The notes beneath the pieces were generated by a model, which made no database searches, was not told the origin of the DNA, and worked only from the letters and a program-made list of their open reading frames with translations. A stretch of 64,000 nucleotides of DNA, from positions 21,371,501 to 21,435,500 of the forward strand of contig NC_068556.1 in the NCBI RefSeq assembly GCF_022201045.2, in the 5' to 3' direction. Source of the DNA: Citrus sinensis. Taxonomy: Eukaryota; Streptophyta; Magnoliopsida; Sapindales; Rutaceae. Of this stretch, positions 29,301 through 60,407 are shown piece by piece; the stretch's first letter is position 1; each line of letters starts with the position of its first letter. A program made the position numbers and the translations under genes.

Positions 29301-30318
29301 ATTTACGAATGACTTTGGTGTGATTATATGCGTGTATGTTGATGACTTGCTTATCTTTGGAATAAATATGCAAGGAGTAGATGATACAAAGAAGTATTTA
29401 ACTTCACAATTTAAGATGAAAGATCTTGGTGAAGTAGATACTATCTTAGGTGTCAAAGTGAATAAACATAGTGGGGGTTACTCGTTGTGTCAATCTCATT
29501 ATATAGAGAAAGTGCTTCTTAAATTCAATTATTTGAAATTTAAAGAAGCTAATACCCCATATGATTCTAGTATTAAATTACTAGAAAATTCAGGCCGAGT
29601 AGTAGCACAACTAGAATATGCTAGTGCTATTGGTAGCTTGATGTATGCTATGCATTGTACGAGGCCTGATATAGCATTTGCAGTTTGCAAAATGTCAAGA
29701 TTCACGAGTAACCCTAGTGTTGAACACTAGAAAGCAATTGGTAGGATACTTGGTTATCTTAAAAGGACCATTAATTTGGGTTTGTTTTATAATGATTATC
29801 CTGAAGTATTGAAAGGATATTCATATGCTAGTTGGGTAACCAATACAAAAGATAATAAATCCACTTCTGGTTGGATTTTTACAATTGCTGGAGGAGCGGT
29901 TTCTTGGGCTTCAAAGAAACAAACGTGCATAACTCATTCAACAATGGAAAGTGAGTTTATAGCACTTGCGGCTGCAGGCAAAGAAGCAGAATGGCTGAGA
30001 AATTTATTGTTTGATATAATGTTGTGGCCACAGCCGATGCCATCTATTTCTTTGTACTGCGACAGTGAAGCTACATTGTCTAGAGCTTATAATAAAGTAT
30101 ATAATGGAAAGTCTAGACATATTAGCTTGAGACATGAATATGTGAAACAATTAATAGCAAATGGTGTTATTAATATTGTTTATGTTAGGACTAATAAGAA
30201 CCTAGCAGATCCTTTAACAAAAGGTCTTTTAAAAGACTTAGTTAAGGATACATCTTTTGGAATGAGATTGAAATCTTTACACAATAAAGTCACCAACGAC
30301 GGTAACCCAACTATGTAG
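26334..30318 (+). pseudogene. Copia-2 gag-pol, three stops and one frameshift
   Basis: Starts with ATG at 26334. It has gag, zinc knuckle CFFCGKKGHRQSDC, protease WWLDSGATIHVC, integrase (FIDDCSRYTYVYLL, QQNGLAERKNR), RT (MDVKTAFLNGDLDEE, YVDDLL) and RNase H (STMESEFIALAAAGKE). Breaks are TAG at 26808-26810 in gag, a one-base frameshift near 27490-27505 between protease and integrase, TAA at 28180-28182 in integrase, and TAG at 29728-29730 between RT and RNase H. It cannot encode a functional polyprotein. It is clearly more decayed than copia-1, and low in G+C. Confidence 0.9.
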
Positions 30319-36825: not shown

Positions 36826-37539
36826 ACAGGGCCATTCCTACTAAGTTCGAACCTGCTGCGTGCACATTGGTTCATGTAATGATGAAGTAGCTGGCTTCAG
36901 AGTTGAGGTACTGTCATCTTAAGAATCAAGTGAGATCAGTCAACAGGATACCATGAGGTGGTTGAGCTGTGGCTGCCCAATGCTCAAAGTCAAAACAACC
37001 TCAACGTGTAAAGTGGCCTAATTGCTCTATATTAGTAATAGTTTAAAGTTGAATAAGGTGGCTTGTGCTTGAAGAACACTAAAGATAATTGATAATTGCC
37101 TTTTTTTTCATCTCCCTTACTCTTCCCTTTATCATGGGACCCGATAAATTTATATTTTTAAATACTGTTTCTATTGAAATGACTTGTTGTCGATAGGATT
37201 AACATAACGGGGTTGTTTTTAATTCAACTATTGCTTTAGGCATGGCAAATGATGTGGAAGCTCTGTAACCTTAGTTTAAAGAGGGGCCAAAATCAATCAG
37301 AGCTAATTCAATTAATGTTGCTCCCATTGCAAGGCAAGGACTTAAAAATATGAAAAGAAACAAATTCCTGCTTAGAATGAAAGGCTTACAGATTGTAAAA
37401 TGACCCATTTAAAGACATGACAGCCATTTATATTATAGAATGCTAAGTATAGCTACCATGTGAGAAGTCAGAGATGTGGTACCATTATTTATTATATGTC
37501 TCCTGTACTACGACTCCAACCCCTCTGAAAGTAGTGTCC
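36826..37539. other. Spacer between CuAO3 and CuAO4
   Basis: About 0.7 kb holding the CuAO3 3' UTR and the CuAO4 promoter; no other gene. Residues of a duplicated CuAO last exon ('gcccaatgctcaaagtcaaaacaacct' near 36975-37002) suggest an old partial 3' duplication. Confidence 0.5.
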
Positions 37540-40500
37540 ATGACCATGACTATTCCATTGCTAGTTCTTGCTTTTCTCCTACAATGTTGCTGTGCAAATA
37601 GCCTTTACCACCCTCTAGATCCTCTAAATCCCTCAGAAATCAACCAAGCAAAGCTCATAGTTCAAAAGTCTAAACTCGGTACCCTTCCTAACTTAACCTT
37701 TCATTCTGTTGATCTCGAAGAACCAGACAAAGTTCATGTCCTCGAGTGGTTATCCAAACAAAAACGAGGAAAACTTAATCTTCATCGTCAGGCAAAGGTG
37801 GTTCTTCGAGCTGGGGCCGAGACGCATGAACTCATTGTAGACTTGGCCATTGGCTCAATTACATCACATAACATCTACAAAGGTCACGGCTATCCTCCAT
37901 TCGCCTTTATTGAGTTCTTTCGAGCTAGCAAATTACCTTTGACATATCCCAAATTCCGGGAGTCAATACGCCATAGGGGCTTGAATTTGTCAGAAGTTTC
38001 TTGCTTACCATTCACAGTGGGTTGGTATGGCGAACATGTCACAAACAGAGCTCTTAAAGTCGTATGCTTCTATAGAGGGGGATCGCCTAATATATTTGCA
38101 AGGCCTATTGAAGGAATTAGTATGTTGGTTGATGTTGATAAAATGCAAATTATTAAATACACAGATAGGCTTAGACTCCCTTTGCCTAGAGCTGAGGGTA
38201 CAGATTATACATCAGCAAAGACTAATCCAGATTCTGTCATTTGCAATGTGACCAAAGGTGGCTTCACCATTGAAGGCCACAAGGTTAAATGGGCTAATTG
38301 GGATTTTCATGTAAGTTTTGATGCTCGTGCAGGCATCGTCATATCAACAGCTTCAATATTTGATGACAAAATCAATAAGTTTCGACGTGTACTATACAAA
38401 GGTCATGTGTCCGAAACATTTGTCCCATATATGGATCCCACAAATGAATGGTACTTCAAAACATTCATGGACCTAGGTGAATTCGGATTTGGCAGAGCAG
38501 CCGGTAGCCTACAGCCAGTGATCGACTGTCCGAGTAACGCTGAGTATTTAGATGGGTATGTGGCTGGAGCAGATGGGCAGCCACAACAATTCTCTAGAGT
38601 AATTTGCATTTTTGAGAGGTTTTCTGGGAATGTAGCATGGCGACATACTGAAATCAATGTTCCAGGAAAAGTGGTAAGGATGTTTAAATTTTAACTATAT
38701 ATCATATGGATTTGATTTTGGAGATTTCTTGATGATACTAATATAAATTGGCTGGTCATTTGCAGATAAGAAGTGGGGAGCCAGAAGTAAGTTTGGTGGT
38801 TAGGATGGTGACCACTGTTGGAAATTACGATTATGTTCTTGATTGGGAGTTTGACAAGAGTGGCACCATTAAAATCGGGGTAAGAAAAGATTTTGTATTG
38901 TTAAATTTGTGCTCCATTTTCTCTGTTTCACATAATAATCAATTGGAATCTCGATAAATTGCACAATTTTCATCTCTGCTGTTGGTTATTAATTTCATCA
39001 GAATTCTGCTAATAATCTTTAAATGCATCACCGTCAAAAAATTACTGTGAAATTGTGAAATTTCTTTGTAAATAGTCAAGATGAACTGGTCATTAGTCCC
39101 TAGCAAAATAGTCAAAATGAATAATTTGTAATTCGTCAAAATGACCATTTTCTTTGTAAATAGTCAAAATTGTGTGTTCATAGATGACCACACGAACATT
39201 CACACAATTTGAAGTGAAAGATAATTTTTGATAATCAGTCGCTCTCTGTTAGGGGTGTTCAAAATCTAATCCGCTCAATCTATTTAATTCGTAGAAATCT
39301 TATTTGTGGATTGATGGATTAGATTGGACTAAAAATTTAAAAATTCGCAGTCGGTGGATTGGATATGAATTTACTTCTGTAAATCTGTAAAATTTCACAA
39401 ATCTGCAAAAAAATAAAAATATTTATTTAATAAAAAAATTAGACTTATAAATATGACATTATACTTACTAATAAATAAATAAGTTAAAATATAATTACAT
39501 TAATACTCTATTATATTTTATCCGATAATAATATTAAAAAAATAATTAAGTAAAAAAAATACCTTCCTAAGCAATTAATTTTAATGTACTAATCTAAATA
39601 AATGAGATTTTTTTTTCTTTTTGGTATATTATATTTTGAAACTTTGAATGTATTTTCTAACTTTATTTAAACAATTAATTTATTTAAATCTTATTTAATT
39701 TTAAATTTGATCGGTAGTAAAATTATTTTTATGTTAATTTTTTTATTTAATTAGTTTGTAGATAGGACATAATTAAAAAATTTTAGTTTGCAAACCAATC
39801 CGCAAAATGGTGGATTGAGTTAAATCCGCTTTCGATCTGCAGATATATAAATTGGATTTGGATTGAATTTTACCAATTTGTGGATTGGATTTAATTAAAA
39901 ATTTATAATCCATAAATTCATTGATCGGATATTAATTGATGTCTAATCTGTAAAATCCGACCCGCGAACACCTCTACTCTCTACTATGAATATACACATT
40001 ATTTTAACAATTTGAAATTGACTAATGACAAATTCACGTGGACTATTAATAACTAATTCGCTTAGATTGTTTGATAATAAAAAAAGAATTTATATTATTT
40101 TATAAAATACTTATTTTGCTCTTGATTATGCTCTTCCCCCATATTCTAAGAGACTCTTAAAATACTGATCGTGGAGCAAGTGGGGAGCTGCCCCAAACGG
40201 ACCATCATTTATTTGTTAACATTTTGTTGATCTGTTCTATAAAATTTCTTAATCTTTCGTTATTATTTTTTTCCTCTTGCCAGGTGGCTCTAACAGGTAT
40301 TTTGGAGATGAAAGCCACGTCATACACGAATAACGACCAAATAACAGAAAACGTCTACGGTACCTTAGTGGCAGAAAACGCCGTTGCCGTTAATCACGAC
40401 CATTTCGTTACGTACTACCTAGATCTCGACGTTGACGGTAACGGCAATTCCTTCGTCAAATCCAAACTGAAAACCGCGAGGGTATCGAACGTTCGCGCCT

Positions 40501-42917: not shown

Positions 42918-45290
42918 CTAAAGACTAAACTCTGAATCGTGCACTTCATTGGACTGTTGTTCACTTATCAAACTTTCATCGATCAAATGCTCTGCAGAAA
43001 GTATTGCTTCCTCTGGAATTCCATCTACAAAAAATGTGTAAATCATAAACATAATGAACAAGAAAACCAATTAGTGATAAATTTATAATAAGAACAATAC
43101 AACAAATAATTTGATTCTAATAAATAAAATTTTCATACCTTTTAAGTTTTGTTCAAGCCAAAACCAATTTTAAGTGCACACCAATGCCTCTACTGTGGAT
43201 GGGTGAAGTCTACTACGATGAGGGCTCAAATGTCTACCTCTAGTGCTAAAAGCGGACTCCGAAGCAACTGTTGATACAGGAATGACCAAAAAGTCCCTTG
43301 CAATCTTTGCAAGTATATGATATTTGCCTTGATTATTCTTCCACCACGATAAAATGTCAAATTGACTAGTTGAAGGCAAAGTACACTTCTCAAGATAAAA
43401 CTCTAATTCTGATTTGGAATGAGTATTTTGTGTGTTTTCATTTCTAAATAATGCCCACTCATCAGTCATTTCATCCAAATCTAAATCTAACATATTAAAG
43501 TCCCCTCCTGCAACAGCTTGAGAATTGGCACCATTAACCCCCCCACTTGAATTTGATAGATGATTTACTTCATACTCATGTACTAAATCAACAAATAACT
43601 TACGCACTCTTTCAATTTCAGATTCAGCTCTTTCCCCATATATTTTAGGAAATAAAAAGTTAATCAGTAACATTTTACGCCTAGGATCTAACATAGTCCC
43701 CACTGCAAGAACTCCATGAATAACATCCCAATACTTTTCATACTTTGCAATCATCCTAGTAGCCATATTTTTTATCCCCTCAATTGGTGATTGCAACCAA
43801 GCATTCATTGACAATCTAATTTCACAAATCTTGGCAAAAAATAAATTAGATGTCGGATATCGTGTCCCCGAAAAAAGTTCTGTCAACTTATAAAAGCTTT
43901 TTAAATACTCACACATAAGCTTTGACAAATTCCACTCTGACTCACTAGGTAAAGATGTATAATTTCTCTCACGTTCCTTTAAACAATCAAATACATTTTT
44001 ATACAGCAATGCAGTACTAAGCATCAAGTAAGTAGAGTTCCATCTAGTTTTACAATCAAGTACTAAGTTTTTGGTTTCCTTAATACCTAATTGTTTTTTT
44101 GCATTCTCAAATTTTTCAACTCTAGCTGGTGTTGCTGTCCAATAATGAACACTATCTCTAATTTTCTCAACTCCCTTTTGTATCACTGACAAACCATCTC
44201 TAACTATCAAGTTCAATATATGAGCACAACAACGCATGTGAAAGAATTTGCCACCCATAATCATTGAACTAGTAGAAAATTTCCCCAACAAGGCAATCAT
44301 AGAATCATTTGCAGCACAATTATCAGCAGTTACAGAAGACAATTTTCTATCTATATTCCAATCCATCAAACAATCATATAACTCATTACACATTACCTCA
44401 GCACTATGTGGAGCTGGCACATATATAAACCTAACAATGTGAAAAAATAATTAAAATATTAGACAGGACATTAATTTATGCTTAAACCAGAAAAAAAAGT
44501 TTCAAGAATATTACCTCATAATACGACTTCGCAACACCCATGAACTATCAATGTAATGTGCCGTAATAACCATGTATCCTTTTTTTTGGTTACTAACAGT
44601 CCACATATCAGTAGTAATTGCAATTCTACTCTCACAAGCTTCCAAAATACCCATTGTCTTTTTCTTTTCAACATCATAAAGTCTCAAAATTTCAGCTTTG
44701 ATGGTGTTTCTACTAATAGTCTCAATAGAAGGTTGGAGTAGCTTTAACAAGTCATAAAACCCAACATACTCAACAAATGCCAAGGGGAGCTCATGTAGTA
44801 CAATCATTCTAGCTACAAAAAGCTTTACTGTAGCCATATCCCATTTTGACTCAGAGCTACAATTACTAAGTGAAGTGCTTCCATCAACTTTAGAAGAAAA
44901 AGATAGGTGCATTTGCTGTACATTCTTAAATGACCTTCTAGGACAACGTTTAGCATGGTTTATTAAGTGATTAATACCCCTGGAATAATGCCCTTGCATA
45001 ACTAACCCATAGTAATTGCAAATTGCCTGAACTTCCTCACCCAACTTAACTTTTTTGAAATGATTTCAAGCATCAGAGACTACTCTACCACCACCATATT
45101 GTTTTTGTGAAGTGACAGGATTAGTATTACCCCTACGGCCACGACTACTCCCCTGAACTGCTGCTGTTGAATTTGGTTCTAATTCAACAGCTGTATCGTT
45201 ATTTTTTTCTGATTCTGTCCTAACTCTCACACAAACACTTTCATCACTTTTTTCAGAGGCATCCAAGTCGATTCTTTGTTCATTTTCCAT
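42918..45290 (-). pseudogene. hAT transposase (BED-type, RICESLEEPER-like), broken
   Basis: Three exons on the minus strand: 45290-44515, 44430-43138 and 43024-42918, with consensus splice sites and matching phases. The N-terminal BED finger region (NHFKKVKLG, then CNYYG) is damaged. A TGA at 45068-45066 replaces the Trp expected before NHF, and the second zinc Cys is Tyr. The catalytic RNase-H-like core is present (ITTDMWTVSNQKKGYMVIT, then TADNCAAND). The hAT dimerisation region (LSWWKNNQGKYHILAKIARDFL...VASESAFSTRGR) is intact. A second stop (TAA, 43172-43170) cuts the frame soon after EALVC; without it the frame would run on through exon 3 to TAG at 42918. It would bind TIR and subterminal repeats if functional. 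This copy is inactive. Confidence 0.88.
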
Positions 45291-45301
45291 ATCAATTTTT
45301 C

Positions 45302-46586
45302 ACTCTACAAAAATTATGTCAAGATATAATTAATTCCAGCAACTTCTTCCAATTTATATGTTATGTTTAACCGTAAAAGTTATAAATAATATTTTAGAGA
45401 TACCATTTCTATTCTATTAACAGCAGCAATAAAAATAATTCAAAAAATAAACTATAAATAATAAAATTGAAGCATAACAAAGTATAGATACGAAAAATCA
45501 CAGAGTTTAGCTATTAAAGTCACAAAGTATAGATATTAAAGTTACAAAGAGAGCAAAACAGAACACAGAACACAGTCAATAGGACACATCTAGCATGGTT
45601 TATTATTATTTTTTATTTTTTTCACCCCACTCCCATAATTACACATATAATATCTGTAAAATATTAAATATTTTCTCCTGAAGCAAAGTTTATTGAGGGT
45701 TTAATTGTCTTTTCGCATTTGGGTATGTAATCCTAGGGTTATGTGATATGTCATCACCCTCCAAAAATAACAAAAACAATACACCATATTTTTTTTTAAT
45801 AACAGTGTTTAGCCATAAGCTTCAAATTCATGGTTAATGTCCTTTCATTTTCCATGCTCAATCCTCCTTCTCACTGGTGGTAAGTTATTATTTTTATTAT
45901 TATTATATATGCTTACTTTAGGGTTATTTTGTTTGTTGGTTCTTCTTTATCTGGGTTTCTATATCATAATAATACCAATACTTTTTTTTAAAGGGAATAA
46001 TACCATTACTTATAATAATAATATCACCAACAAAACAAACTTTATAAGTAAAAATATATAATGAATAGTATTTGTATATTATTTTATTATATCTACTGCG
46101 GATAATTGTTATTTCATTATTCATAATCTTTTAAATATAATTTTCTATCTTGGCCTCCATGAAAGAGGAAGGACAAACAACAAGTGCTTCTTTTTCATTA
46201 TTTGATTTGAAAACTCAATGTTAATGGTCTTTTAAGCAAAGGTATGTTATCAAGTTTTTATACAACCTTAGAGATAGCTAGTATATTTAATCTGTCTCTA
46301 CAGAATTCTGATACAGATTAGTATGATTTAGTGTGTTAACCGATATTAGACTTCTTTTGTAGACTCAAAAAAGTGCCTGCGACAAATTTGATCCTACATT
46401 TCGAACAAGACCTGCTTGTAGCTTGGACAATATTATATTACTATGTCTGTATTTACAATGGTGCCTACCAGGAAGGAGTCTTAATTATTCTTAAATTTGA
46501 CGTTATATCTCCTAAACAATTCTTAGACCGGGAGTGAAGATATTTGCACATATTTGCATATATCCTAAACAATTCTTACTGCATTG
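45302..46586. other. hAT 5' flank of transposase, left of the gypsy insertion
   Basis: Noncoding. A likely acceptor (TTTTTGTAG) sits about 15 bases before the transposase ATG on the minus strand, so a leader intron interrupted by the gypsy insertion is plausible. Ends with CATTG (46582-46586). Confidence 0.5.
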
Positions 46587-46845
46587 TGTTGAGTGTTAGA
46601 AAATGCATATTTATAAAGGAGAAAACCGTCATTTTACATTTCAAGTCTTACTAACAACCCTTACTTTTATGTATTTAACCTTCTTGTGATTTAATTGCAT
46701 GTGTTTTATTTTAATTGAGTATTTTATGTATTTTAGGGGCATTATAGTCATTTCACAATAAAGGAGAAATCAGACGGCAAAACGGACATCACTTTTGAAC
46801 TCAGGACGGTCAAAAACCTTAGGAGGAGCATAAAAGGAAAAATGA

Positions 46846-47158
46846 CACTATTCACATGTACGGTACTATTCACGTGTACGGTACTGTATACGTTACTGTT
46901 CACGACACTGTTCACATTGACCGATGATGTGGCATTGACTGATGAGGTGTCACGATCCTGTTGGACTAAAATTCTTATGTACTGTTGATGGTGACGTGGC
47001 AGCATATCAGTGGACGAAAAATCTCGTGTACGGTGCATGCATCACACAGGATTATTTTCAACCAAACCGCGTTACTGTTCATCCGGGTCAAACCGCGTTA
47101 CTGTTCAAAGTCGGGTCAAACCGTGTTACTGTTCATCCGCGTGGTCAAACCGTGGACT
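46846..47158. repeat. Tandem TACTGTTCA motifs in the gypsy U3
   Basis: The first cluster has 'acggtactattcac', 'gttactgttcac' and 'gacactgttcac'. The second has three 'gttactgttca' copies alternating with '(g)ggtcaaaccg(c/t)g'. The short ORFs seen here are translations of this repeat. The same block recurs in the 3' LTR at 58049-58361. Confidence 0.85.
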
Positions 47159-47230
47159 GTTGACTGATGACGTGGCGCAATCCTGAGCGTCCAAACTGTT
47201 TTTAATCCGATGGCCATGATTTACTCTATG

Positions 47231-47245
47231 TATCTATAAAAAGGG
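47231..47245 (+). promoter_or_regulatory. TATA box in gypsy LTR
   Basis: CTATAAAAAGG upstream of a C-rich leader; an identical copy is in the 3' LTR near 58437. Confidence 0.7.
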
Positions 47246-47924
47246 GGCCTCTCCCCCCTAATTTGATATCTCTGAATCCATTTTTGGGATCCATTTTCTG
47301 TAATTCCCTCTCCATCTTGTATTTTCTTCGTATTTTAATAAATTCTCATTTTGCCCCTAATTCAACTATGAGTGGCTAATTTTCTTTCAAGCTTGGGTTG
47401 AAGGTGAAGTCTCAACATGTGTCATGGGCTTAATTTGGTAAATTTATTTTCTCTTCCCCTCTAATTTTTGTGGATGTTTTGACTTCTCGTCGACAAATAA
47501 TAATAGTCTTGTCTAGATACCGCCTTGGTTACACCGGCTCTCTAGTATAAGGTTATTATTATTTGGCACGATAAGCCCTTAGCACCATATTGATTAGAGC
47601 GTGGTTCATGAGGTGTGGATTCCCCCCTCATGATTTAATTGGCATTAATACGGATTATTTAGCCCATGATGCATGTTGATACGGATCCGAATACCCAAGT
47701 ACGTCATTTCAATAGAATTATCTTCAATTTATTCTCGCCATTTTAATTTAAGTTTTAGCATATTCCAAACCATTTCCACCATAAATCCAACCACCCATTT
47801 ACAAAATTAATTCTACACATAATTAAAATTCACCTCCTCGTGGGATCGACACTCGTCACCATTGATCTATACTATAATAGATTCGTGCGCTTGCGAGTAC
47901 ATTAAAATTTGCACAACAAGTTTT

Positions 47925-47942
47925 TGGCGCCGTTGCCGGGGA
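47925..47942 (+). other. Gypsy primer binding site (tRNA-Asp type)
   Basis: TGGCGCCGTTGCCGGGGA starts six bases after the LTR and is complementary to the 3' end of plant tRNA-Asp. Confidence 0.92.
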
Positions 47943-47950
47943 GGTAAGTA
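47941..47950 (+). promoter_or_regulatory. Consensus 5' splice donor in the gypsy leader
   Basis: GAG|GTAAGTA directly overlaps the end of the primer site, the position of the major splice donor in retroviruses. It could supply a common leader for spliced mRNAs of the downstream ORFs. Inference from consensus only. Confidence 0.5.
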
Positions 47951-48328
47951 ATTTCAATTCATAGAATTAATTTTTTTGAATAATTTCTTTTATTTGTTTT
48001 CTTGTATTTTTTTTATTAAATTAAAAAAAAGAAAAAAAAAGTGAATCTACATTTAAAGGTTGGTATTTCTTTTCTTTTTCTCTTCTTTAAAATTCTGTAA
48101 TTTAATTTTCCATTTATTTTTCTTCGTAATTTTTTTTTTGTTTATCTTATTAATTTAATTTTTAGTTAATTTCTTTCACGTATTTATTTTTGTATTTTTA
48201 TAGAAAGGTTGTAATAGCGCAATAAGGTTAGTATCGTAATTTCTCCCTCTTCTTTATTTTTATTTGTTTTGTTCCCATCTTTATTTTTTGTTTTGTTTGC
48301 ATCTTTATTTTTATTTTATTTATTTTGC

Positions 48329-51300
48329 ATGCATGGTCGTAGGTCATTATTACCTAATCTTGAACCTATAGACCTTGAATTAGAAAAAACACTTCGCACA
48401 CACAAACACGTTAAAAATAAAATGGATTTACAAGCACCACAGGAGAGGCCATTTAAGGACTATTTTAGTCCCTTAGCTAATTTGAGCACGTCATGCATAA
48501 GATACCCAAATGTAGCTGCTAGGAGTTTTGAATTAAAACCTAGTGTGTTAAATTGTCTCCCTACATTTTATGGCCTAGAAAATGAGGATCCATATAATCA
48601 TTTGAATGATTTTCATGCCATTTGTCAAACATTCAAATATGAGAATTTTTCAGATGATGATGTTAAACTTAGACTATTCCCATTTTCTTTAAAAGATAGA
48701 GCTCGTTCATGGTTAAATACTTTACCTGCTAATAGCATTTCATCATGGGAACAAATGGTAACGAAATTTTTGAATAAATATTTCCCAGTGCATAAAACCA
48801 ATGCTATTCGCAGGGAAATCTCAGAGTTTACCCAGAGAGAGGACGAGCAATTTTTCGAAACATGGGAGCGATTCAATGGGCTACTCTTGAAGTGTCCACA
48901 TCATGGGTACGAGAAATGGCACCAATGTCAATACTTTTTGGAGGGATTACTACCAAATGTGCAAGAATGGCTAATGGCAACAAGTGGAGGAGAGCTAATG
49001 TCAAAAAGTGCATCAGAAATTTGGGAATTCTTCCAGCGACAAGCAGATAATTCCCAACAACGGAGTCGATCACTCAGGAATACTAGAAGAATTAAAGGAG
49101 TGAATGAGGTTCAAATTGGCGAATCAACTTCGGGAATCAAAGAAGTCAAGGAGATGGTTGAAGGTCTTGCTCGACAAATAGCATCGTTATCAACTGCGAA
49201 ATCAACAGAACCACATGACCATGACTCATACTCAGATCAAGCCAATGCCATAGGTGTAATGAGAAAGCCATCAAATTACAACCCATACTCCAACACATAT
49301 AACCCTGGATGGAGAGACCACCCCAATTTTTCATGGTCTCAAGGATTCCAACAGAATGGACCAGTAGCTCCAGCTCCACCAATGCAACAAATTTCTCAAA
49401 ATCCTCAAGCCTCTCAGCCCCCATTTAGACCATACAATCAAAACCAGAACCACTCTCAACCTAGACCATGGGAGGATGCATTCCAGAATTTCAGGAATGT
49501 TACTCACTCCACGATTGAGCAACAGAACCGCACCATTGATGGACTACGAAATGAGTTGAGAGCAGGCTTCAACTCACAAGCTCAATCGGTTTCAAGCCTC
49601 GAGAAGATGGTGGGACAACTTGCTTCTTCAGTTCAGACCTTGGCAATGACTGTTGAGAAAGGCAAGTTTCCAAGTCAACCAGTACCTAACCCTAAAGGAG
49701 TGCATGAAGCAAGTACCAGTTCACCACAGCAGCATGGAGAGGTCAAAGCAGTCATGACCTTACGAAAAGGAAAAGAAGTCGACAACAAAGTGGAAATGCC
49801 GGTGACAAAAGAAAATCAAATTGTACCTGTGAATGTTGAGGACTCACCACCGGAGGAAAAAGAAGAAACCAACCCACGGGAATATGTTCCCAAAGCTCCA
49901 TTTCCTCAGAGGTTAGCTAAAGGAAAAAAGGGAAAATCCACAGGTGAGATTCTTGAAATCTTCAAACAGGTAAGTGTTAACATCCCTTTGCTTGATGCTA
50001 TTAAACAAGTTCCATCTTATGCCAAGTTTCTTAAAGACCTTTGTACTAAAAAGAGAAATATGCATGTTCAAAAGAAGGCATTTTTAACAGAAAACGTTAG
50101 TTCTATACTCCAACATAAAATTCCTTTAAAATGCAAAGACCCAGGCTCCCCCACTATCTCATGTAGTATAGGGAACCACACAATTGAGAATGCTTTGTTG
50201 GATTTAGGAGCTAGTGTAAATCTGTTACCTTATTCAGTGTTTGTGAAACTTGGACTTGGAGAATTACACCCAACTCCAGTGGTGTTACAGCTTGCAGATC
50301 GGTCCACGAAAATACCTCGTGGTATTGTGGAGGACGTGCTTATCCAGGTAGACAAGTTTTATTTTCCTGTTGATTTCATTGTAATTGACACTCAACCAAT
50401 ACAGGATTCAAGGAAGCACATCCCCATTATTCTAGGCCGACCTTTCTTGGCAACTGCGGATGCTCACATTCAATGCAGAACTGGAAATATGCAGTTGTCC
50501 TTCGGCAACATGACTATGGAACTGAACATCTTCAACATTGCCAAACAACCTCACAGTGCAGATGATGGAATTGTTGATGTGGATTTAATAGAAACAATAG
50601 TTGATAATACTTTTCTTTCAAACCTTAGTGATGATCCTTTACAGACATGCTTAACTCACTTTGGTTTGGATTTTGATATTGACAGATCGGTTGATGAGGT
50701 CAACGCCCTGCTTGACTCAGCACCATCTATGGACACTAATAAATGGAAGTCAAGAGTTGAACAACTAGCACCATCAGAGAAGCAACTCATTCCATCATCA
50801 GAATCACCACCGAAACTCGAGCTCAAACCATTGCCCAACACTTTGGAATATGCGTTTTTGGGAGAAGAAAGCACTCTGCCGGTAATCATCTCATCATCCC
50901 TCAATGACGAACAAAAAGGTAAGTTGTTGGATGTTTTAAAAGAGCATAAAGGGGCATTAGGATGGACCATAGCAGACATCAAAGGTATAAACCCAGTAGA
51001 CTGCATGCATTACATTCACCTTGATGAAAATGCTAAATCTACTAGGGAAATGCAACGTCGGTTAAATCCTAATATGAAAGAAGTTGTTAGAACAGAAGTC
51101 CTTAAGCTATTAGACGCAGGTATCATTTACCCAATTTCTGATAGTTCATGGGTCAGTCCTGTACAAGTTGTCCCCAAAAAGTCAGGAGTCACAGTAGTTA
51201 CGAATGCAGATAATGAATTGATACCCACTAGAGTAACTACAGGATGGCGTGTATGCATTGATTATAGAAAATTGAATTCTGTCACACGTAAAGACCATTT

Positions 51301-53719
51301 TCCTTTACCATTTATTGATCAAATGCTTGATAGATTAGCAGGCCATGAATTTTATTGCTTTCTAGATGGTTACTCAGGATATAATCAGATTCCCATAGCA
51401 CCAAAAGATCAAGAGAAAACTACTTTCACTTGCCCTTTTGGCACATTTGCATATAGGAGAATGCCATTTGGATTATGTAATGCACCTGCTACATTTCAAC
51501 GATGCATGTTGAGCATTTTTTCTGATATGGTGGAACGATTCCTTGAAGTCTTTATGGATGATTTTTCTGTCTTTGGTGACTCGTTTGATCAATGTTTACA
51601 TTATCTAACACTAGTTCTGCAGAGATGTATCGAGAAGAACTTGGTCTTAAATTGGGAGAAATGTCATTTTATGGTAAAACAAGGTATTGTTCTCGGTCAC
51701 ATCATTTCGAGCAAAGGTATTGAGGTTGACAAAGCCAAGGTGGATCTCATTTCTAATCTTCCTCCACCTAAAACAGTCAGAGAAGTAAGATCTTTCCTTG
51801 GGCATGCTGGTTTCTATAGACGTTTCATTAAAGATTTTAGCAAAGTTTCTAGACCCTTATGCAATTTACTTGCTAAGGATGTACCTTTTATCTTTAATGA
51901 TTCATGTCTTATGGCTTTTGAAAAATTAAAGCAATTGTTGACATCATCACCCATCATTCAGGCCCCAAACTGGAACTTACCATTTGAGCTTATGTGTGAT
52001 GCATCTGATTATGCAGTAGGAGCAGTATTAGGACAAAGAGTTGATCGAATTCCCCATGTTATTTACTATGCTAGTATGACATTAAATGATGCACAGTTGA
52101 ACTATTCAACTACTGAAAAAGAAATGCTAGCAGTAGTGTTTGCATTAGAAAAATTTCGATCTTATCTCATTGGTTGTAAAATAATTGTGTTCACAGATCA
52201 TGCTGCTCTTAAATATCTTCTCACAAAGAAAGATGCAAAAGCTAGACTAATTCGTTGGGTGTTACTTTTGCAGGAATTTGACTTGGAATTCAAAGATAAG
52301 AAAGGGACAGAAAATGTTGTGGCGGACCACCTCTCTCGTCTCCATTTTGACACAATTACAGAATCATTACCATTGAATGAGTCATTTCCAGATGAACAAT
52401 TAATGAATGTGGAAGTATTACCTTGGTATGCTGATATAGTTAATTATCTTGTTACAGGTAAACTTCCAGAGCATTGGACCAAGCAAGACAAGGCTAAATT
52501 CTTTGCAGAGATAAAAAATTTCTTTTGGGATGACCCGTATTTGTTCAAGTATTGTGCAGACCAAATTGTTAGACGATGTGTCCCAGAAAGTGAAATTCAG
52601 AATATCCTTTCATTCTGCCATGAACAAGCTTGTGGAGGCCATTTCAGTGCTAAGAAAACAGCGACTAAAGTTTTACAATGTGGTTTCTATTGGCCATCTA
52701 TATTTCGAGACGCTTACACTTTCTGTTCTTCATGTGATAGGTGTCAACGAATGGGAAGCATTACACGAAGGAACATGATGCCACTAAATCCAATTTTAGT
52801 GGTTGAGATTTTTGATGTATGGGGTATCGACTTCATGGGACCCTTTCCCCCGTCTTTTGGCCATCAATACATATTGGTTGCTGTTGACTACGTATCAAAA
52901 TGGGTAGAAGCAATTCCATGTAGGACCAATGATCACAAGGTGGTGATAGCATTTTTGAAAAGCAACATTGTTTCACGCTTTGGATTCCCTCGAGCGATAA
53001 TCAGTGATGGTGGTGCCCACTTTTGTAACAAAGCATTCAAAGCTCTTTTGACAAAGTATTCAATCACACACAAAGTGGCGACTCCGTATCATCCGCAAAC
53101 CAGTGGCCAAGTTGAGATCTCCAATCGAGAAATAAAGCACATATTAGAAAAGACGGTGAGGCCAGACAGAAAAGATTGGTCATTAAGACTTGATGATGCC
53201 TTATGGGCATATAGAACGGCTTTCAAGACCCCGATTGGGATGTCACCCTACAGGCTAGTGTATGGAAAAGCTTGCCACCTACCTGTGGAACTTGAGCATC
53301 GTGCGTATTGGGCTATCAAGAAATTCAATTTTGACATGCAGCAAGCCAGCTCAGAAAGAAGATTACAGCTGGCAGAACTTGAAGAAATTCGCAATGATGC
53401 ATACGAAAATGCCAAGATTTACAAGCAACGAATGAAAGTCTTCCATGATAAGCAAATTATGAGAAAATCGTTCACTCCAGGTCAGAAAGTGCTTTTGTTC
53501 AATTCTCGCTTGCACCTATTCCCAGGTAAGTTACGCTCTCGTTGGTCTGGTCCCTTTATTGTTCATACTGTTTTTCCACATGGGGCAATTGAAATTAAGG
53601 ACCCAAAGAACGGTGTCACGTTTAAAGTTAATGGTCAAAGATTAAAGCCATATCTAGAATACCAACCACGTGGAGAAGACACCGAAATAAATTTGAGTGA
53701 CCCACCAGATTTGAATTGA
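48329..53719 (+). CDS. Gypsy gag-pol polyprotein, intact, 1796 aa
   Basis: I start at the first ATG of the frame (MHGRRSLLP). Order: gag (retrotransposon gag domain, about residues 45-270), then a Gln/Pro-rich linker. Protease with [12 protein letters not shown] lies near 624; it has DLG in place of D(S/T)G. Reverse transcriptase has [11 protein letters not shown] near 972, [13 protein letters not shown], and the FMDD catalytic site near 1075. RNase H has [12 protein letters not shown] near 1220 and [11 protein letters not shown]. Integrase has an HHCC finger (about 1430-1468), Asp in GIDFMG near 1499, SDGGAHF near 1558, and Glu in [11 protein letters not shown] near 1595. No stop or frameshift is present and the catalytic residues I can see are all there. 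It would make the particle proteins and replicate and integrate the element. Since the LTRs look identical, this copy may still be able to move. Confidence 0.95.
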
Positions 53720-53848
53720 TTTTTTTTCTTTCTTTTCGTTGATTTGATTTTGTTTTCTTTTTTTTTATATTATTCTTTTGCTAATTGAAATTGTTTTTGC
53801 ATAAGTGTATTTATTTTACCATTAAGTTTTCTCTTATCATTGTTAATC

Positions 53849-54082
53849 ATGAGTCTCATACTTAGACCGTTCCTCCTGAACATTCTTAAACCACTTCAAC
53901 GTGTCAAAACTCATCTCAAAAGGCAGATTCAATTTTGTAAAACACAACGCATTTGGGCTCTACAACCACCAGAGTTAGTAGCCTATGTTGAGGGTTTAGA
54001 AAGCCAACTCAGAGACATTGAGAGAAGTGTTTACGACATCCAGTTGGAGCTTGAGGTAAATTCAATAAGAGGACGATTTTAA
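53849..54082 (+). CDS. Accessory ORF A, 77 aa, unknown
   Basis: Lies 129 bp after the pol stop, inside the gypsy element. MSLILRPFLLNILKPLQ is hydrophobic and basic. It is followed by a basic stretch (KTHLKRQIQF) and an acidic, helix-prone, possibly coiled-coil second half (ELVAYVEGLESQLRDIERSV). No transmembrane-length segment and no family recognised. It is short enough to be chance, but it is uninterrupted and its composition is protein-like. Confidence 0.45.
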   Translation: MSLILRPFLLNILKPLQRVKTHLKRQIQFCKTQRIWALQPPELVAYVEGLESQLRDIERSVYDIQLELEVNSIRGRF

Positions 54083-54120
54083 TTTTCTTTGTGTGTTTTA
54101 ATTTGTTTTTCTGTTTGTGT

Positions 54121-54127
54121 GCTTTAG
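54121..54127 (+). promoter_or_regulatory. Candidate 3' splice acceptor before the cysteine-rich ORF
   Basis: A long T-rich tract (ttttaatttgtttttctgtt) leads to GTGCTTTAG at 54119-54127, about 95 bases before the ATG of ORF B. It pairs plausibly with the leader donor at 47943/47944. Confidence 0.4.
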
Positions 54128-54223
54128 TTTGTTACCCCGGTGAAGTGGCGGATAACGGTACTCCGTGACAATCAAGTCGGTTACTTCAGTTTCCCATAAT
54201 AACTGATATTCTGAGGCGAAGGT

Positions 54224-54781
54224 ATGGACAGAAACGAGATTCTAGCGAAGCTTCACAAGCGATTCCCTTCACTTCCTCAGAATGCCCTCCTTACGATCTA
54301 TAAAGCTCGGTCCGAACGCATGCGATTACTCATGAGGAATAACATACCTGCTGACATCCGTTGGTTAATCGAGGCTAAAGTACGATCGGCAGGTGAGTTA
54401 CCTCCAAAATTTATTGCATACATGCCTGGTTGTGGTAAAGGAAATTATGCAAGAAAACGACGAGCTCGAAGAATTTCTGTTGCTTGTCATAAGTGTGCCA
54501 GAATGAGTTGCAATAAAAACCCATGTTCTTTAGGAATGGTGTCTGATAACAGGGAAGATAAGATTCAATTCATTAGGGATGGCTTGAATAAGGAGTCATT
54601 GGATGATATCCTTTTGTCTCTTGAAACGCATCCCAGTGGATATGTGCAAGGAGCGATTCTCCAGTTATGGCCATTATTCCAGAAAGAGCATGCACGATAT
54701 AGTCTTGGGAATCTGACTATAAACGACCCTGTTTGCCAGTTTATAAGAAAACTGGATAGGAAGCCTATCCTCGACCCATAG
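54224..54781 (+). CDS. Accessory ORF B: basic cysteine-rich protein, 185 aa
   Basis: An uninterrupted ORF in the post-pol region of the gypsy element. The N-terminal half is helical and charged (ILAKLHKRFPSL, then ERMRLLMRNNIP). A glycine-containing lead (GCGKGNYARKRRARR, residues 69-83) carries a strong basic patch that could be a nuclear-localisation or nucleic-acid-binding segment. Directly after it comes a potential zinc-binding set C88-x2-C91-x4-C96-x4-C101 (ACHKCARMSCNKNPC). The layout (basic arginine run, then CHxC, further cysteines, then a hydrophobic/acidic tail) resembles the small nucleic-acid-binding proteins of carlaviruses and relatives (Pfam Carla_C4 or Viral_NABP). This is pattern recall without a search. 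Those viral proteins act in RNA silencing and gene regulation. After the TAG stop the frame stays open for 22 more codons to a TAA at 54848-54850. Confidence 0.75.
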   Translation: MDRNEILAKLHKRFPSLPQNALLTIYKARSERMRLLMRNNIPADIRWLIEAKVRSAGELPPKFIAYMPGCGKGNYARKRRARRISVACHKCARMSCNKNPCSLGMVSDNREDKIQFIRDGLNKESLDDILLSLETHPSGYVQGAILQLWPLFQKEHARYSLGNLTINDPVCQFIRKLDRKPILDP

Positions 54782-55113
54782 AGGGCGTTCAAGCCGTTTC
54801 TGGACGTAAAACCAGAGGAAGATGTGAGCCACAGTCGCAACTACCTGTAAATATCCTTTTACTTTACTGTTATTTTTGTTTTATTGTGTGCATTATTGTC
54901 TTTAATAATTTTATTACTGTTTGTTTTTTTTTTCTTATTACTGTTTACTTTTTCCTTTTTACTGTTTCCTTTTTGACTCGCGAGCCACGTGCTTTACGCG
55001 TTATTTGACACTGACATATTACCTCATACACAACCATGACCCACTGTCACCAAGACTCTTAAATGTGATTTTTTTTGTCAAGCACTCACAAATTGTTTTT
55101 GAGAAATATCACA

Positions 55114-55782
55114 ATGGCAGCTACTCCCAATAGACAATTCAAGAACATTTGTGTGCTTTCCGGATTTACATATGGCAAACATAAAGAGTTCGTTGAGGCA
55201 GCCATAGATCTTGGTCGAAGCATAGCAGCGAGAAAATTACACTTGGTGTATGGCGGAGGTAACCGAGGGTTATCAAAAATGGTCTCAGAAGCAGCTTTTA
55301 TTAGAGGCAGCCAAGTGATAGGCATCATCCCAAGAGCCCTAAAACCTTTGGGCAGTTCGTCTGACTCATCAACTGGAGAAGAGTTAGTCGTCTCAGGTAT
55401 GCAAGAAAGAATAACTGAAATGCTTAATCATGCTGATGCTTTTATTTTCCTTCCAGGAGATCTTGCAACACTAGAGGCACTTATCACGCTAGCATCTTGG
55501 GCCCATCTGCACATCCACCAGAAACCCATCGGTTTGTTAAATGTCAATAACTTTTATGATGGCTTTATCGCATTTCTTAACCATGCAATAAAAAACTATT
55601 TCATTCCCTCTAATGCGAAAAAACTCTTTATTTGTGCTCACACTGCTAATGAGCTACTTGATATGTTACAAGCTTATCGACCGGAGCCAGACCCCTGGAC
55701 CTTTGTGTTGGAGCGTCCAAATAATGATGGTAACAGTAGCCGCAGTAAAAAGTACAAATTAGATTTAACTCTCCGCCTGTAA
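55114..55782 (+). CDS. Accessory ORF C: LONELY GUY-like phosphoribohydrolase, 222 aa, inside gypsy
   Basis: Resembles plant LOG enzymes, which release active cytokinin from its riboside 5'-monophosphate in the cytosol. Visible family landmarks, in order: ICVLSGFTYGKHKEF (LOG N-terminus, CVFCGS.xG), AAIDLGRSIAARKLHLVYGGGNRGLS (GGGS.GLM motif), MQERITEM (conserved Arg), then ADAFIFLPGDLATLEAL, WAHLHIHQKPIGLLNV and GFIA. The length is typical (LOGs are about 210-220 aa). The signature loop PGGxGTxxE reads PGDLATLEA: the final Glu is kept but two glycines are lost, so activity may be altered. The ATG context ACAATGGC is the plant optimum. There are no introns, whereas host LOG genes have several; together with its place between pol and LTR this implies capture from an mRNA. 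It is open throughout and so probably under selection or recently acquired. Confidence 0.85.
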   Translation: MAATPNRQFKNICVLSGFTYGKHKEFVEAAIDLGRSIAARKLHLVYGGGNRGLSKMVSEAAFIRGSQVIGIIPRALKPLGSSSDSSTGEELVVSGMQERITEMLNHADAFIFLPGDLATLEALITLASWAHLHIHQKPIGLLNVNNFYDGFIAFLNHAIKNYFIPSNAKKLFICAHTANELLDMLQAYRPEPDPWTFVLERPNNDGNSSRSKKYKLDLTLRL

Positions 55783-57106
55783 ATATTTTATTCTGTGTTG
55801 CACCACCCAGGTGATGTCTTCTAAACTCTACTTCTTTCATTTCAAACATTGAGGACAATGTTTCGTTCTGGTTGGGGGGAGGGAATAGACGACAATTGTG
55901 GAATTTTGGTTAAGTTTTTACTAATTTTTTGTTGTAGAAACTAACTGTTGCTAACTTTTTGTGTTGAAGATGGCTGAATATGGAGTGTAGTGACTCTAGA
56001 AACGCATCTTCATCGTTTAAAAAAAAAAATTAAAAAAAAAAAAAAAAAAAAACTTAAAAAAAAAAAAATTCAGACATTTTCTTTTCCTTTATTATGTGTT
56101 TATGTTTATTTTTCTTCTTTTTAATTTCTCCTCTATAAATATACATTTTCTAACTTTTGAGTCGAAGATGGCTGAATATGGAGTGTAGTTCCTCTAGAAA
56201 CGCATCTTCTTTAAAAAAAAAAAAAAAAAAATCATTTTCGTTTTCTATCATTTTACGTGTAACTTTTCTAATTAGTTTGTATGCATCATTTTCACATTTC
56301 TGCATGCATATTTTCCTTTCATGCTTAGAATAGATTGGGGGGTAGAATGTTGTTTGAAAAAAAAAAAAAAATTGTTTGATTTATTTTAACATTGGATGAC
56401 ATGATTAATTTCAAATTTTAGTATTTGTATTATCTTTGGTCTTAAGTGATGTTACATTATGTTTGCTACTCTACATGTTGATGTTGGAGACAAATATGAG
56501 TTGCTTGAAGGAATGAACATGTCATAATAAATACCAAGTGAGTTTTTGAGCCTATCATTTTTCTTGGAGAGTAACCCTTTTGCCCATTCTCTATACAGCT
56601 TAGCAGTTTATTATTTTATACACGATCTCTAGATTTCTTTTGAGTTAACCCTTAAAAAAAAAATGGTAAAATAAAAAAAAAAAAAAAGTGTGTTGCTACA
56701 TTATTGGGAGGCCCATCTAACTAGTAGATATGGATGATTATTTAGAGCCCTAAAAGACGATGGAAAGGCCATCTTTGATCCGTTTGAGCCTTTCTAGCCA
56801 TCCCTTTTGTGATATATCCATAGTTAACCCTTTTGAGCCTTTAAAAATAAAAAATAAAAAAAAATGAAAACCTTTTCTTTGTCAACTTATCATCTTGACC
56901 CACTCCGATTTGGAGTATTACCCGATGTCTTATAAGGTCCATCACCTATTTATGTTTGAGAAAAATGTAAATAATTATTTTGTTCAGTGAAGTTGTGCCA
57001 AATAAAAGCAAAAAAAAAAAAAAAAAAACAAAACAAAACAAAACAAAAGTTGTTGTTTCAAAAGAATAAAAATAACAATAATAGGTGAAATCCACCTTGC
57101 AACTTC

Positions 57107-57144
<38 letters not shown>

Positions 57145-57789
57145 CTCTGCATTTTTCTCAAACATACACTTTGTTTTCCTTATTTCCCTTCTTTGTTAAC
57201 CATGTCCCTAGCCTACGTTACATCCTAAAAAAAAAGTCCTTCTTGATTTTAGGGAACTATAGTCCGAAGTAGAAGCTAGTTATATGGGCTAAAAAGATGT
57301 AGTGATGCATAATTAAAAAAAAAAAAAAAAAAAAAGATAAATAAAGTGGGTTGACTAACATTTTATTTGACTTGAGATCGTATTATTTCTAAGCTAAGGG
57401 CATATTTATTTAATCTTGGTGAGAGCATGTGATATCACTTCTTTATTATTTTCTCTCTCAATTACCATTCTTTGGAGTGACTATTTTTATTGGGTTTAAT
57501 TTATTTGTGAGAATGTCACTACTTCCAGTGAGATTTTGGGGTTGACATGTCATTCTTGAAAGTAGCTATAACAAAGTCTACTGGGCTAATTCATGTGGAT
57601 GGTTGATGTGGGTGTGATGTTGCTTTAGACTGGAGATAATGCTTATACTTTTATTTGATTGCTATCATTAATCTGATGGAATAAATACGAGTGTTTCTAT
57701 TTAAAAAAAAAAAAAAAAATTTTATTTTGAATTTGAATTTTGTTTTCGCTTTATTTGCTAGAGACTAGCAATAAGCTGGTTGGGGGGTG
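55783..57789 (+). other. Gypsy 3' noncoding region with poly-A tracts and repeated hairpins
   Basis: 2 kb without coding potential. It has at least eight A-tracts of 13-38 bases, three GGTTGGGGGG/GATTGGGGGG polypurine-like stretches (55870-55880, 56332-56342 and 57778-57789), and two copies of a stem-loop-capable repeat (55966-56011 and 56164-56209). The last purine tract abuts the 3' LTR and is the likely true PPT. Confidence 0.8.
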
Positions 57790-59121
57790 TGTTGAGTGTT
57801 AGAAAATGCATATTTATAAAGGAGAAAACCGTCATTTTACATTTCAAGTCTTACTAACAACCCTTACTTTTATGTATTTAACCTTCTTGTGATTTAATTG
57901 CATGTGTTTTATTTTAATTGAGTATTTTATGTATTTTAGGGGCATTATAGTCATTTCACAATAAAGGAGAAATCAGACGGCAAAACGGACATCACTTTTG
58001 AACTCAGGACGGTCAAAAACCTTAGGAGGAGCATAAAAGGAAAAATGACACTATTCACATGTACGGTACTATTCACGTGTACGGTACTGTATACGTTACT
58101 GTTCACGACACTGTTCACATTGACCGATGATGTGGCATTGACTGATGAGGTGTCACGATCCTGTTGGACTAAAATTCTTATGTACTGTTGATGGTGACGT
58201 GGCAGCATATCAGTGGACGAAAAATCTCGTGTACGGTGCATGCATCACACAGGATTATTTTCAACCAAACCGCGTTACTGTTCATCCGGGTCAAACCGCG
58301 TTACTGTTCAAAGTCGGGTCAAACCGTGTTACTGTTCATCCGCGTGGTCAAACCGTGGACTGTTGACTGATGACGTGGCGCAATCCTGAGCGTCCAAACT
58401 GTTTTTAATCCGATGGCCATGATTTACTCTATGTATCTATAAAAAGGGGGCCTCTCCCCCCTAATTTGATATCTCTGAATCCATTTTTGGGATCCATTTT
58501 CTGTAATTCCCTCTCCATCTTGTATTTTCTTCGTATTTTAATAAATTCTCATTTTGCCCCTAATTCAACTATGAGTGGCTAATTTTCTTTCAAGCTTGGG
58601 TTGAAGGTGAAGTCTCAACATGTGTCATGGGCTTAATTTGGTAAATTTATTTTCTCTTCCCCTCTAATTTTTGTGGATGTTTTGACTTCTCGTCGACAAA
58701 TAATAATAGTCTTGTCTAGATACCGCCTTGGTTACACCGGCTCTCTAGTATAAGGTTATTATTATTTGGCACGATAAGCCCTTAGCACCATATTGATTAG
58801 AGCGTGGTTCATGAGGTGTGGATTCCCCCCTCATGATTTAATTGGCATTAATACGGATTATTTAGCCCATGATGCATGTTGATACGGATCCGAATACCCA
58901 AGTACGTCATTTCAATAGAATTATCTTCAATTTATTCTCGCCATTTTAATTTAAGTTTTAGCATATTCCAAACCATTTCCACCATAAATCCAACCACCCA
59001 TTTACAAAATTAATTCTACACATAATTAAAATTCACCTCCTCGTGGGATCGACACTCGTCACCATTGATCTATACTATAATAGATTCGTGCGCTTGCGAG
59101 TACATTAAAATTTGCACAACA
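57790..59121 (+). repeat. Gypsy 3' LTR
   Basis: 1332 bp; at every stretch I compared it is identical to the 5' LTR. The repeat offset is a constant 11203 bases from end to end, so there is no indel. Confidence 0.95.
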
Positions 59122-60407
59122 CATTGTCAGATTATTCTAAATTTCTAATTGAGGAAAAGGATCAAGAGTGTACAATACTAACTGGAAAGAGTCATTACAT
59201 TTCAAGCAACTCAATATACATAAATAGTAGAAGCACAGGACAGGGTCGAACCCGATTTCAGTGAGAGAAAGCAGAAGCAAGCCAAATAGAGTATTAATGC
59301 TAGTCAAGCTCAGAACTACCATTCATGCAGCTAGCCACAGGCAGCAGCCCTTTGGCTAGTTATACTTCAAATTCAATTCTAAGCTTACTCACTAACCAAC
59401 TCTTAATACACAAAACCAACAATACGATTTAGAAGAAAAATGGCAACTGATCTGTTTTAGACAACAGTTCTCCTTGTGCCAGAAAAACAAAGAACAAAAA
59501 GAGGCAAATAATTCAGAAAAACAAAAAGCTTATAATTAGTCAAGTGCTCTCATATGTCATATACAAAGAAAACCATGTCTGAGGGAAAATCACATTGTGC
59601 CAGAAGCAATACAAGCTCAAAGCATAACAGCACAAAAATTGCAAAGAGGGAAAATCAAAGTGTAATAGAGCATAAATTGTAAAGAGAAAAGCCGAGACTC
59701 ACAAATATTCACAGCGGCAGCCGAAGTATACGCTGATGAACACAGAAGACAGCCGCGAGCTGAGGTGGATTTCAACCCCTTTTGCTGGCCGCGACAGAGC
59801 GAGAGATCAGACGAGTGATGAAACGAACAAAGCCTCGCCGTGAAGGTGATGACAAGCCACGCCGCGAAGGATCGGATCTGATCTGAAGAAGAGATTACAG
59901 GAGAGTTGCAGAGAGAGTGAGAGAGATTAAGTGACGAGTGACGACGGAGGACTGAGGTGAGGAATGAGTCACGGCTCACGGCGACGGGTGAGAGGGATTG
60001 AGAGAGGAACGGATTACGGTTTATGGATGAGACTTGAGAGATTGAATGGAGAAATTACAGATTTACAGTAATTTTTTTAGGTTGAAGGAGAAATTTCGAG
60101 AGAGGATCAGACTTCAGAGGAACGAGACGAGAGAGATCTAGATTATAGGGTTCACTTTTGTTTTTATTTTTTTTATTTTTTCTATTTATATTTACGGATA
60201 AAAATTAATATTAAAATAAATAACATCCGGGTCCGGGTTCTGGGTTTGCAGGTTCACCTGAAACTGGATCCGGACCGGGAAAATGCGGGTTGTCAAAAAT
60301 TGATCTGGATTCCGGATAAAAACTATGCCGGTGCGGGTTGAACCAGGACCGGATTTTCTGGGTTCAATCCGGGTCTGATCTGGGTCCGGGTTTAGTTGCC
60401 TTCCCTA
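59122..60407 (-). other. hAT right arm: promoter/leader side of the transposase
   Basis: Separated from the transposase by the gypsy insertion. On the minus strand it probably holds the transposase promoter and a noncoding first exon. The 120-codon minus-strand open frame (59979-59617) has no protein family features. The terminal 180 bases contain dense CCGGGT/ATCCGG subterminal repeats and the inverted end. Confidence 0.6.

Follow-up and report, generated by a model that had tools for sequence, protein, structure and literature searches.

A LOG-like protein carried by Athila-type retrotransposons of citrus is probably a repurposed host-manipulation protein rather than a cytokinin-producing enzyme

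We analyzed a 64-kb stretch of Citrus sinensis DNA, referred to here as the window, which contains a full LTR retrotransposon of 12,535 bp (approximately 12.5 kb) at positions 46587-59121. The element has a 5' LTR (46587..47918) and a 3' LTR (57790..59121), both of 1332 bp, on the + strand, and with TG...CA ends, and it is flanked on the left (46582..46586) and on the right (59122..59126) by the target-site duplication CATTG, for which no strand is assigned. The two LTRs are identical over all 1332 bp, indicating that the insertion is recent. A primer-binding site, TGGCGCCGTTGCCGGGGA, is read just 3' of the 5' LTR (47925..47942, + strand) and is, we presume, the complement to a tRNA of the Asp type; a polypurine-like tract, GGTTGGGGGG, lies just 5' of the 3' LTR (57778..57787, + strand). 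Exact borders had been claimed for this element in an earlier, sequence-only reading of the window, and the identical LTRs, the CATTG on both sides, and the primer site following the 5' LTR agree with that claim.

The gag-pol region occupies one frame of 1816 codons on the + strand (48269..53719), counted from a TTG that represents a putative start. A Pfam scan of gag-pol identified Retrotrans_gag, protease, RVT_1, RNase H, and integrase domains; its list of 10 families with E values up to 1 includes no chromodomain. The LTRs, the 5-bp target-site duplication, the gag-pol with its RT-RNase H-integrase order, and the absence of a chromodomain are all Athila-type features. We take the element to be a probable Athila on the basis of its resemblance to Athila sequences and of the primer site. 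Elsewhere in the window, four related + strand frames (8448-9263, 22565-23341, 32967-33743, and 37474-38694) contain the motif ...YHPLD.L.PSE... and presumably represent a tandem array of partial copper amine oxidase genes, interspersed with Copia-like frames (16112-20086 and 27388-29730); frames at 43170-45044 on the - strand resemble what we take to be a hAT-type transposase.

Between pol and the 3' LTR, three open frames of 77, 185, and 222 aa are found on the + strand. The 77-aa frame (53849..54082), which is also present in a second subfamily of the element (subfamily C, below), had no significant match in Pfam, the best being SKA1 with an E value of 0.094. The 185-aa frame (ORF1; 54224..54781) is considered further below. 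The 222-aa frame (55114..55782) runs from ATG to TAA without introns and is related to the LONELY GUY (LOG) proteins: it matches Pfam Lysine_decarbox (E 1.9e-28) and TIGR00730 (E 7.6e-37), in each case above the cut-off. Its score of 93.5 against the NCBIfam LOG equivalog NF058542 lies under the cut-off of 300, as does that of an AtLOG3-like protein (132.4). The closest solved structure is AtLOG3 (2a33; E 3.9e-46), and identity to the AtLOG3-like protein is 43% over 183 residues. AlphaFold models made from shallow alignments had mean pLDDT values of 44 and 40, too poor for use. The sequence-only reading had described a 222-aa LOG homologue carried as cargo of the element and had proposed the comparison with Lysine_decarbox; the open frame, the significant profile matches, and the position between pol and the 3' LTR all bear out that description. 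It had missed the 77-aa frame and ORF1, as well as the changed loop and the EAR-like end of the protein described below.

Copies of the LOG-like ORF were sought in the C. sinensis genome itself (299.7 Mb in 11 contigs). The 150 best scored among 2110 candidates were 96-100% identical to the query, and 148 of these 150 lacked an in-frame stop. Loci were also selected by their integrase, the 30 used being those that ranked highest among 150 matches listed from 4622 candidates, with the window's own copy among them. ORF1 and the start of LOG were present in all 30, the first 29-37 residues of LOG being found at the expected place up to the end of each locus. Because these loci are the best integrase matches, they sample the youngest subfamily. 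The loci selected by their LOG sequence comprise at least three subfamilies: A, to which the window's copy belongs; B, 75-78% identical; and C, 72-74% identical. Subfamilies B and C share the order of A, with LOG downstream of ORF1. A long LOG match was found in 45 loci. The frame is intact in 25 of them (22 distinct), and the remaining 20 were excluded as broken or truncated; among these 20, L076 duplicates L009 and is interrupted merely by the end of its locus. The search for further ORF-bearing copies that the sequence-only reading had proposed thus returned many, and as far as sampled the LOG ORF is typical of these elements.

All species-labelled close homologues, among the best 120 of 586, are from Citrus. 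In UniRef, citrus copies of this retrotransposon-borne protein (hereafter retro-LOG) are labelled cytokinin riboside 5'-monophosphate phosphoribohydrolase, one cluster (P0003) having 705 member sequences; the NCBI label is hypothetical protein. Counts of LOG genes in citrus may be inflated by such copies. When we searched the genome with part of AtLOG3 for exons of host LOG genes, the matches were swamped by retro copies.

The LOG domain is under purifying selection between subfamilies. For codons 1-190, dN/dS was 0.14 for A-B, 0.20 for A-C, and 0.19 for B-C, compared with 0.57-1.93 for the other two frames of the same DNA, which served as a control. These values are based on 6 A, 9 B, and 5 C sequences, with the truncated L030 and the A-like L075 dropped. 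Within subfamilies, dN/dS was 0.32 for B (with L030 and L075 included) and 0.44 for C, and the value of 0.04 for A comes from copies picked by protein match and is hence biased. Three outcomes had been named at the outset as speaking against a retained LOG cargo, these being no match to LOG, a one-off passenger, or dN/dS near 1 with stops in sister copies; none of them was seen, though stops occur commonly among the older copies of subfamily B. In one A-C pair, dN/dS was 0.24 for ORF1, 0.34 for the 77-aa frame, and 0.08 for the integrase end. For this pair (53000-55782 compared with L069), dS was 2.78 at the integrase end, near saturation, but 0.93 for ORF1 and 0.82 for LOG; these unequal values, from a single pair, might reflect an exchange of the 3' accessory module between Athila lineages.

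The features that characterize LOG catalysis can be compared with CgLOG. According to excerpts of PMC4979012, CgLOG is a dimer with an active-site pocket built by both chains. Phosphate contacts come from main-chain atoms of Gly116, Ala117, and Gly118 and from the side chains of Thr119 and Ser19, adenine is contacted by Met96, Lys100, and Glu121, and the proposed catalytic residues are Arg99 and Glu122; Ala substitutions in the active site, Ser19 excepted, almost abolished activity (PMC4979012, in part). The aligned parts of PDB chains 5zbj and 5zbk differ solely at this Glu/Ala position, presumably a deliberate catalytic mutant.

In the window's ORF, the LOG catalytic loop PGGxGTxxE is replaced by PGDLATLEA (codons 114-122; 55453..55479, + strand). 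We examined the query together with the best 120 of its 586 homologues, 119 of these rows covering the loop and 110 covering Arg99/Lys100. PGGxGT was found in none of the 121 proteins. The Gly116 equivalent is Asp in 117 of the 119 rows, the Gly118 equivalent is Ala in 109, and neither position has Gly in any row; at the Glu122 equivalent, Ala is found in 108, Thr in 7, and other residues in 4, with Glu in none. The residue after the Arg, equivalent to Lys100, is Lys in only 1 of 110. Retained for the most part are the equivalents of Arg99 (101 of 110), Thr119 (117 of 119), and Glu121 (116 of 119). The altered loop is itself conserved, and synonymous changes are seen at the Asp, Thr, and Ala. 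By comparison, among the 120 LOG1/LOG3-type plant proteins nearest AtLOG3 that made up our control set, PGGxGTxxE is present in 111 and M..RK..M in all 120; in the remaining 9 the sequence is interrupted after ALP, apparently through an error in the gene model. In the genome, a degenerate GD-L-AT-L-EA pattern (Leu or Phe permitted) occurs at 938 sites, with none for the reversed control. A strict pattern for the canonical loop occurs at a single site, a host LOG with introns, and a loose one at 8 sites compared with 9 in the control; both canonical patterns miss host genes in which the motif holds an intron.

Retro-LOG thus has LOG homology but neither the PGGxGTxxE loop with its catalytic Glu nor the RK pair, and the enzyme is probably dead. 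Since the catalytic Glu and two loop Gly are replaced while the protein is still under purifying selection, a non-catalytic LOG-fold protein is most likely, and these substitutions argue strongly for it. What stands of the sequence-only reading is LOG homology, an intronless cargo gene, and its retention under purifying selection; its proposal that the product releases active cytokinin is not supported, given the loss of the Gly116, Gly118, and Glu122 equivalents in all 119 rows. A point against reading loop loss in this way is that the Gly116 and Gly118 phosphate contacts of CgLOG are made by the main chain (PMC4979012, in part), and some nucleotide binding is possible given that the Arg99, Thr119, and Glu121 equivalents are mostly kept.

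EAR motifs of plant proteins bind TOPLESS co-repressors. Retro-LOG ends in LDLTLRL (codons 216-222; 55759..55779, + strand), an EAR-type motif; of the two EAR forms considered, LxLxL or DLNxxP, it is LxLxL that is present at the C-terminus. LxLxL is usually C-terminal, as in LDLELRL of AtZP1 (PMC9956375, in part). The last 7 codons gave dN/dS values of 0.02 (A-B), 0.00 (A-C), and 0.04 (B-C), with 0.8-1.8 synonymous changes per pair, and follow a variable stretch (codons 191-218; A-B 0.51, A-C 0.27, B-C 0.38). A degenerate pattern for LDLTLRL and its stop, permitting Leu or Phe, Arg or Ser, and stop or TGG, was found at 1032 genomic sites and at 10 in the control. LxLxL lies within the last 12 residues of 87 of the 121 listed retro-LOG homologues, many of the others being gene models with different ends, and none of the 120 plant LOGs nearest AtLOG3 has it within the last 40 residues. 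The tail is the strongest pointer to a binding partner, and by analogy it may bind TOPLESS. In the oomycete effector HaRxL21, TPL binding needs the C-terminal LMLTL, but LxLxL is short and not sufficient, for ten other Hyaloperonospora effectors with LxLxL showed no TPL binding by Y2H (PMC7446885, in part).

Two of the sites found with the loose pattern, C5:21026442 and C1:8962762, are intronless LOG relics that keep PGGLGTLEE. They are 68% identical over 115 residues, with two stops in this region of C1:8962762, and both have the order pol, ORF1, and remains of LOG seen in A-C, with about 54 codons of ORF1 left at C5:21026442. A near-exact search of the genome yielded no third relic. In the tree, the relics group with A-C with support of 98.8/100 and are separate from plant and bacterial LOGs. 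All sampled retro-LOGs form one clade, which has a long branch and does not nest within the plant LOGs sampled, in trees with two bacterial outgroup sequences. As the relics keep the canonical loop and join A-C, an older branch had that loop, and the loss of catalysis probably followed capture. The relic sequences that align to LDLTLRL are MD*NLHL (with a stop) and MDLNLHM, in a frame that differs from the LOG body, and neither has a complete LxLxL tail, one having the stop and the other ending in Met. Tail-related sequence probably predates the loop change, to judge from these two decayed copies, with the age of the tail resting on degraded sequence that is incomplete and out of the LOG frame. 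A pattern scan of IMG/VR for a virus donor found no relative of LOG, ORF1, or the ORF1 homologue P0165.

ORF1 contains a basic patch followed by C-x2-C-x4-C-x4-C. The window copy matches Carla_C4 (E 0.0095) and Viral_NABP (E 0.047) below both cut-offs, as do the B and C copies (best E 0.00039). A search with four ORF1 sequences identified homologues labelled Xanthoceras, Acer, Populus, and Rhamnella, and 6 of the 7 full-length homologues scanned score above at least one of the two cut-offs (best 2.1e-07), the exception being P0228; a 58-aa relic fragment of ORF1 matched neither family. By sequence comparison, ORF1 is probably related to the cysteine-rich proteins of carlaviruses and the Viral_NABP family. 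Such proteins of carlaviruses and of a mandarivirus are RNA silencing suppressors, and CVB p12 is also a transcription factor that causes hyperplasia (PMC12172455, in part). By analogy, ORF1 could have a role like that of a silencing suppressor or transcription factor. The segment 54719-54853, made up of the final 20 codons of ORF1 and the 75 nt starting at its stop, is approximately 3 times less variable than its flanks, with mean minor-allele frequencies of 0.053 and 0.049 compared with 0.163 and 0.173 among 44 distinct copies. Its variation peaks at third positions of another frame, and it contains a conserved GTAAAT followed by a U-rich stretch that resembles a splice donor. An overlapping exon or an RNA element might account for this constraint. 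Rfam gave two matches in 54500-55200, with E values of 0.31 and 0.56, far below the gathering scores. A fusion of ORF1 to LOG by read-through or splicing is improbable, as the extension frame is not the one with third-position variation.

Several explanations can be offered for what retro-LOG does. That it is an active LOG, releasing cytokinin to create dividing, meristem-like cells, finds some support in the homology, the Arg kept in 101 of 110 rows, and the canonical loop of the relics. This explanation is very improbable when set against the replacement of Glu and both Gly in 119 of 119 rows, Lys kept in only 1 of 110, the near loss of activity that Ala causes at active-site residues of CgLOG (PMC4979012, in part), and the 5zbj/5zbk difference at the same position. 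The broken or truncated frames in 20 of 45 loci (one by locus end) and the within-subfamily dN/dS of B and C would suit a functionless passenger copied merely through its place inside the element; we consider this most improbable given the between-subfamily values of 0.14-0.20, well below the control frames, and ORF1 with the LOG start in 30 of 30 integrase-selected copies.

Two further explanations accept a changed active site. A catalytically dead subunit would be a simple poison for a dimer, and with both chains of CgLOG forming the pocket (PMC4979012, in part), retro-LOG could pair with host LOG subunits and lower cytokinin. At 43% identity to the AtLOG3-like protein, however, mixed dimers are uncertain, and the tail is left unexplained, making such interference unlikely. 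A somewhat stronger contender, though still doubtful, is a LOG-fold protein with a changed ligand, serving as a sensor or scavenger that binds or slowly hydrolyses another nucleotide, with the tail secondary. The retained Arg99, Thr119, and Glu121 equivalents and the conservation of the altered loop itself are consistent with it; with an Asp in its phosphate-binding loop, however, the protein would be expected to repel phosphate, and the tail, the most constrained part of the protein, is not accounted for.

The explanation we tentatively prefer, and to which we give slightly less than even weight, is that retro-LOG descends from a captured LOG, is no longer catalytic, and has been retained for binding. 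An Athila lineage would have taken up an intronless LOG gene long ago, and the early protein was perhaps an active enzyme, to judge from the canonical loop in the two decayed relatives. On the way to the abundant citrus subfamilies A, B, and C, replacement of the catalytic Glu and of the two phosphate-loop Gly went along with continued purifying selection, most likely leaving a non-catalytic LOG-fold protein. Its near-invariant LDLTLRL end would contact TOPLESS-type complexes, so that the protein may act as an adaptor or decoy in the host nucleus, beside an ORF1 that is probably related to the cysteine-rich silencing suppressors of plant viruses and with which it may cooperate. The within-subfamily dN/dS of B and C, higher than the between-subfamily values, counts against this explanation. 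In our view, retro-LOG probably serves a new role in host manipulation instead of making cytokinin. The broader proposal of a retrovirus-like plant lineage with a host-manipulation module, pairing a virus-type cysteine-rich protein with an ex-enzyme LOG as TOPLESS-recruiting adaptor, is speculative, and we think it on the whole unlikely.

These findings make a catalogued curiosity into a testable case of an accessory protein that a retrotransposon has retained past the probable loss of its enzymatic function. Should the tail prove to bind TOPLESS, plant transposons would share a host hub with some oomycete, bacterial, and fungal effectors; if the module exists as proposed, effector-like proteins such as pathogens use would be encoded by a transposon. 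There is also a warning for annotation, in that many citrus proteins named phosphoribohydrolase in UniRef are retrotransposon copies lacking the catalytic loop. The finding of the YgdH/LOG domain in citrus Gypsy elements is credited in PMC9289625 to Steinbauerova et al. 2011. In the open PMC literature, YgdH together with a retrotransposon was found in PMC9289625 only. Term counts were zero in PMC7264820 for YgdH, lysine decarbox, lonely guy, and citrus and in PMC6317226 for citrus and decarboxylase. Judged by listings from the same literature, no paper reports an LDLTLRL/EAR motif or TOPLESS/EAR in a retrotransposon, or a carlavirus-like protein in an Athila-type retrotransposon.

Capture of LOG by citrus Gypsy elements is not new: excerpts of PMC9289625 describe YgdH, a LONELY GUY protein domain, in consensus LTR elements from C. 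sinensis and C. clementina and, when the n5 filter is omitted, from P. trichocarpa. The domain, genus, and Gypsy type are the same, and the elements are probably identical to ours; these excerpts give the presence of the domain only and do not go into its active site, selection, or tail, the subfamilies, or the partner ORF. Orchid Gypsy elements have likewise captured and kept an enzyme-type ORF, with an RNA demethylase domain, but the orchid protein keeps its cofactor-binding residues and is active in vitro, whereas the catalytic residues of citrus retro-LOG are gone (PMC9289625, in part). Retro-LOG is homologous over approximately 183 residues to the plant LOGs AtLOG3 (2a33) and AtLOG8 (1ydh), from which it differs in its lost loop, its LxLxL tail, its lack of introns, and its carriage by a retrotransposon. 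Like carlavirus and mandarivirus cysteine-rich proteins, ORF1 has a basic patch and then a Cys cluster, with its function predicted only; the window, B, and C copies are unlike members of Carla_C4 and Viral_NABP in scoring below both cut-offs. HaRxL21 resembles retro-LOG in placing a C-terminal LxLxL on a foreign protein in the plant cell (PMC7446885, in part); retro-LOG differs in being a retrotransposon protein with a LOG-type domain, for which contact with TPL is putative only.
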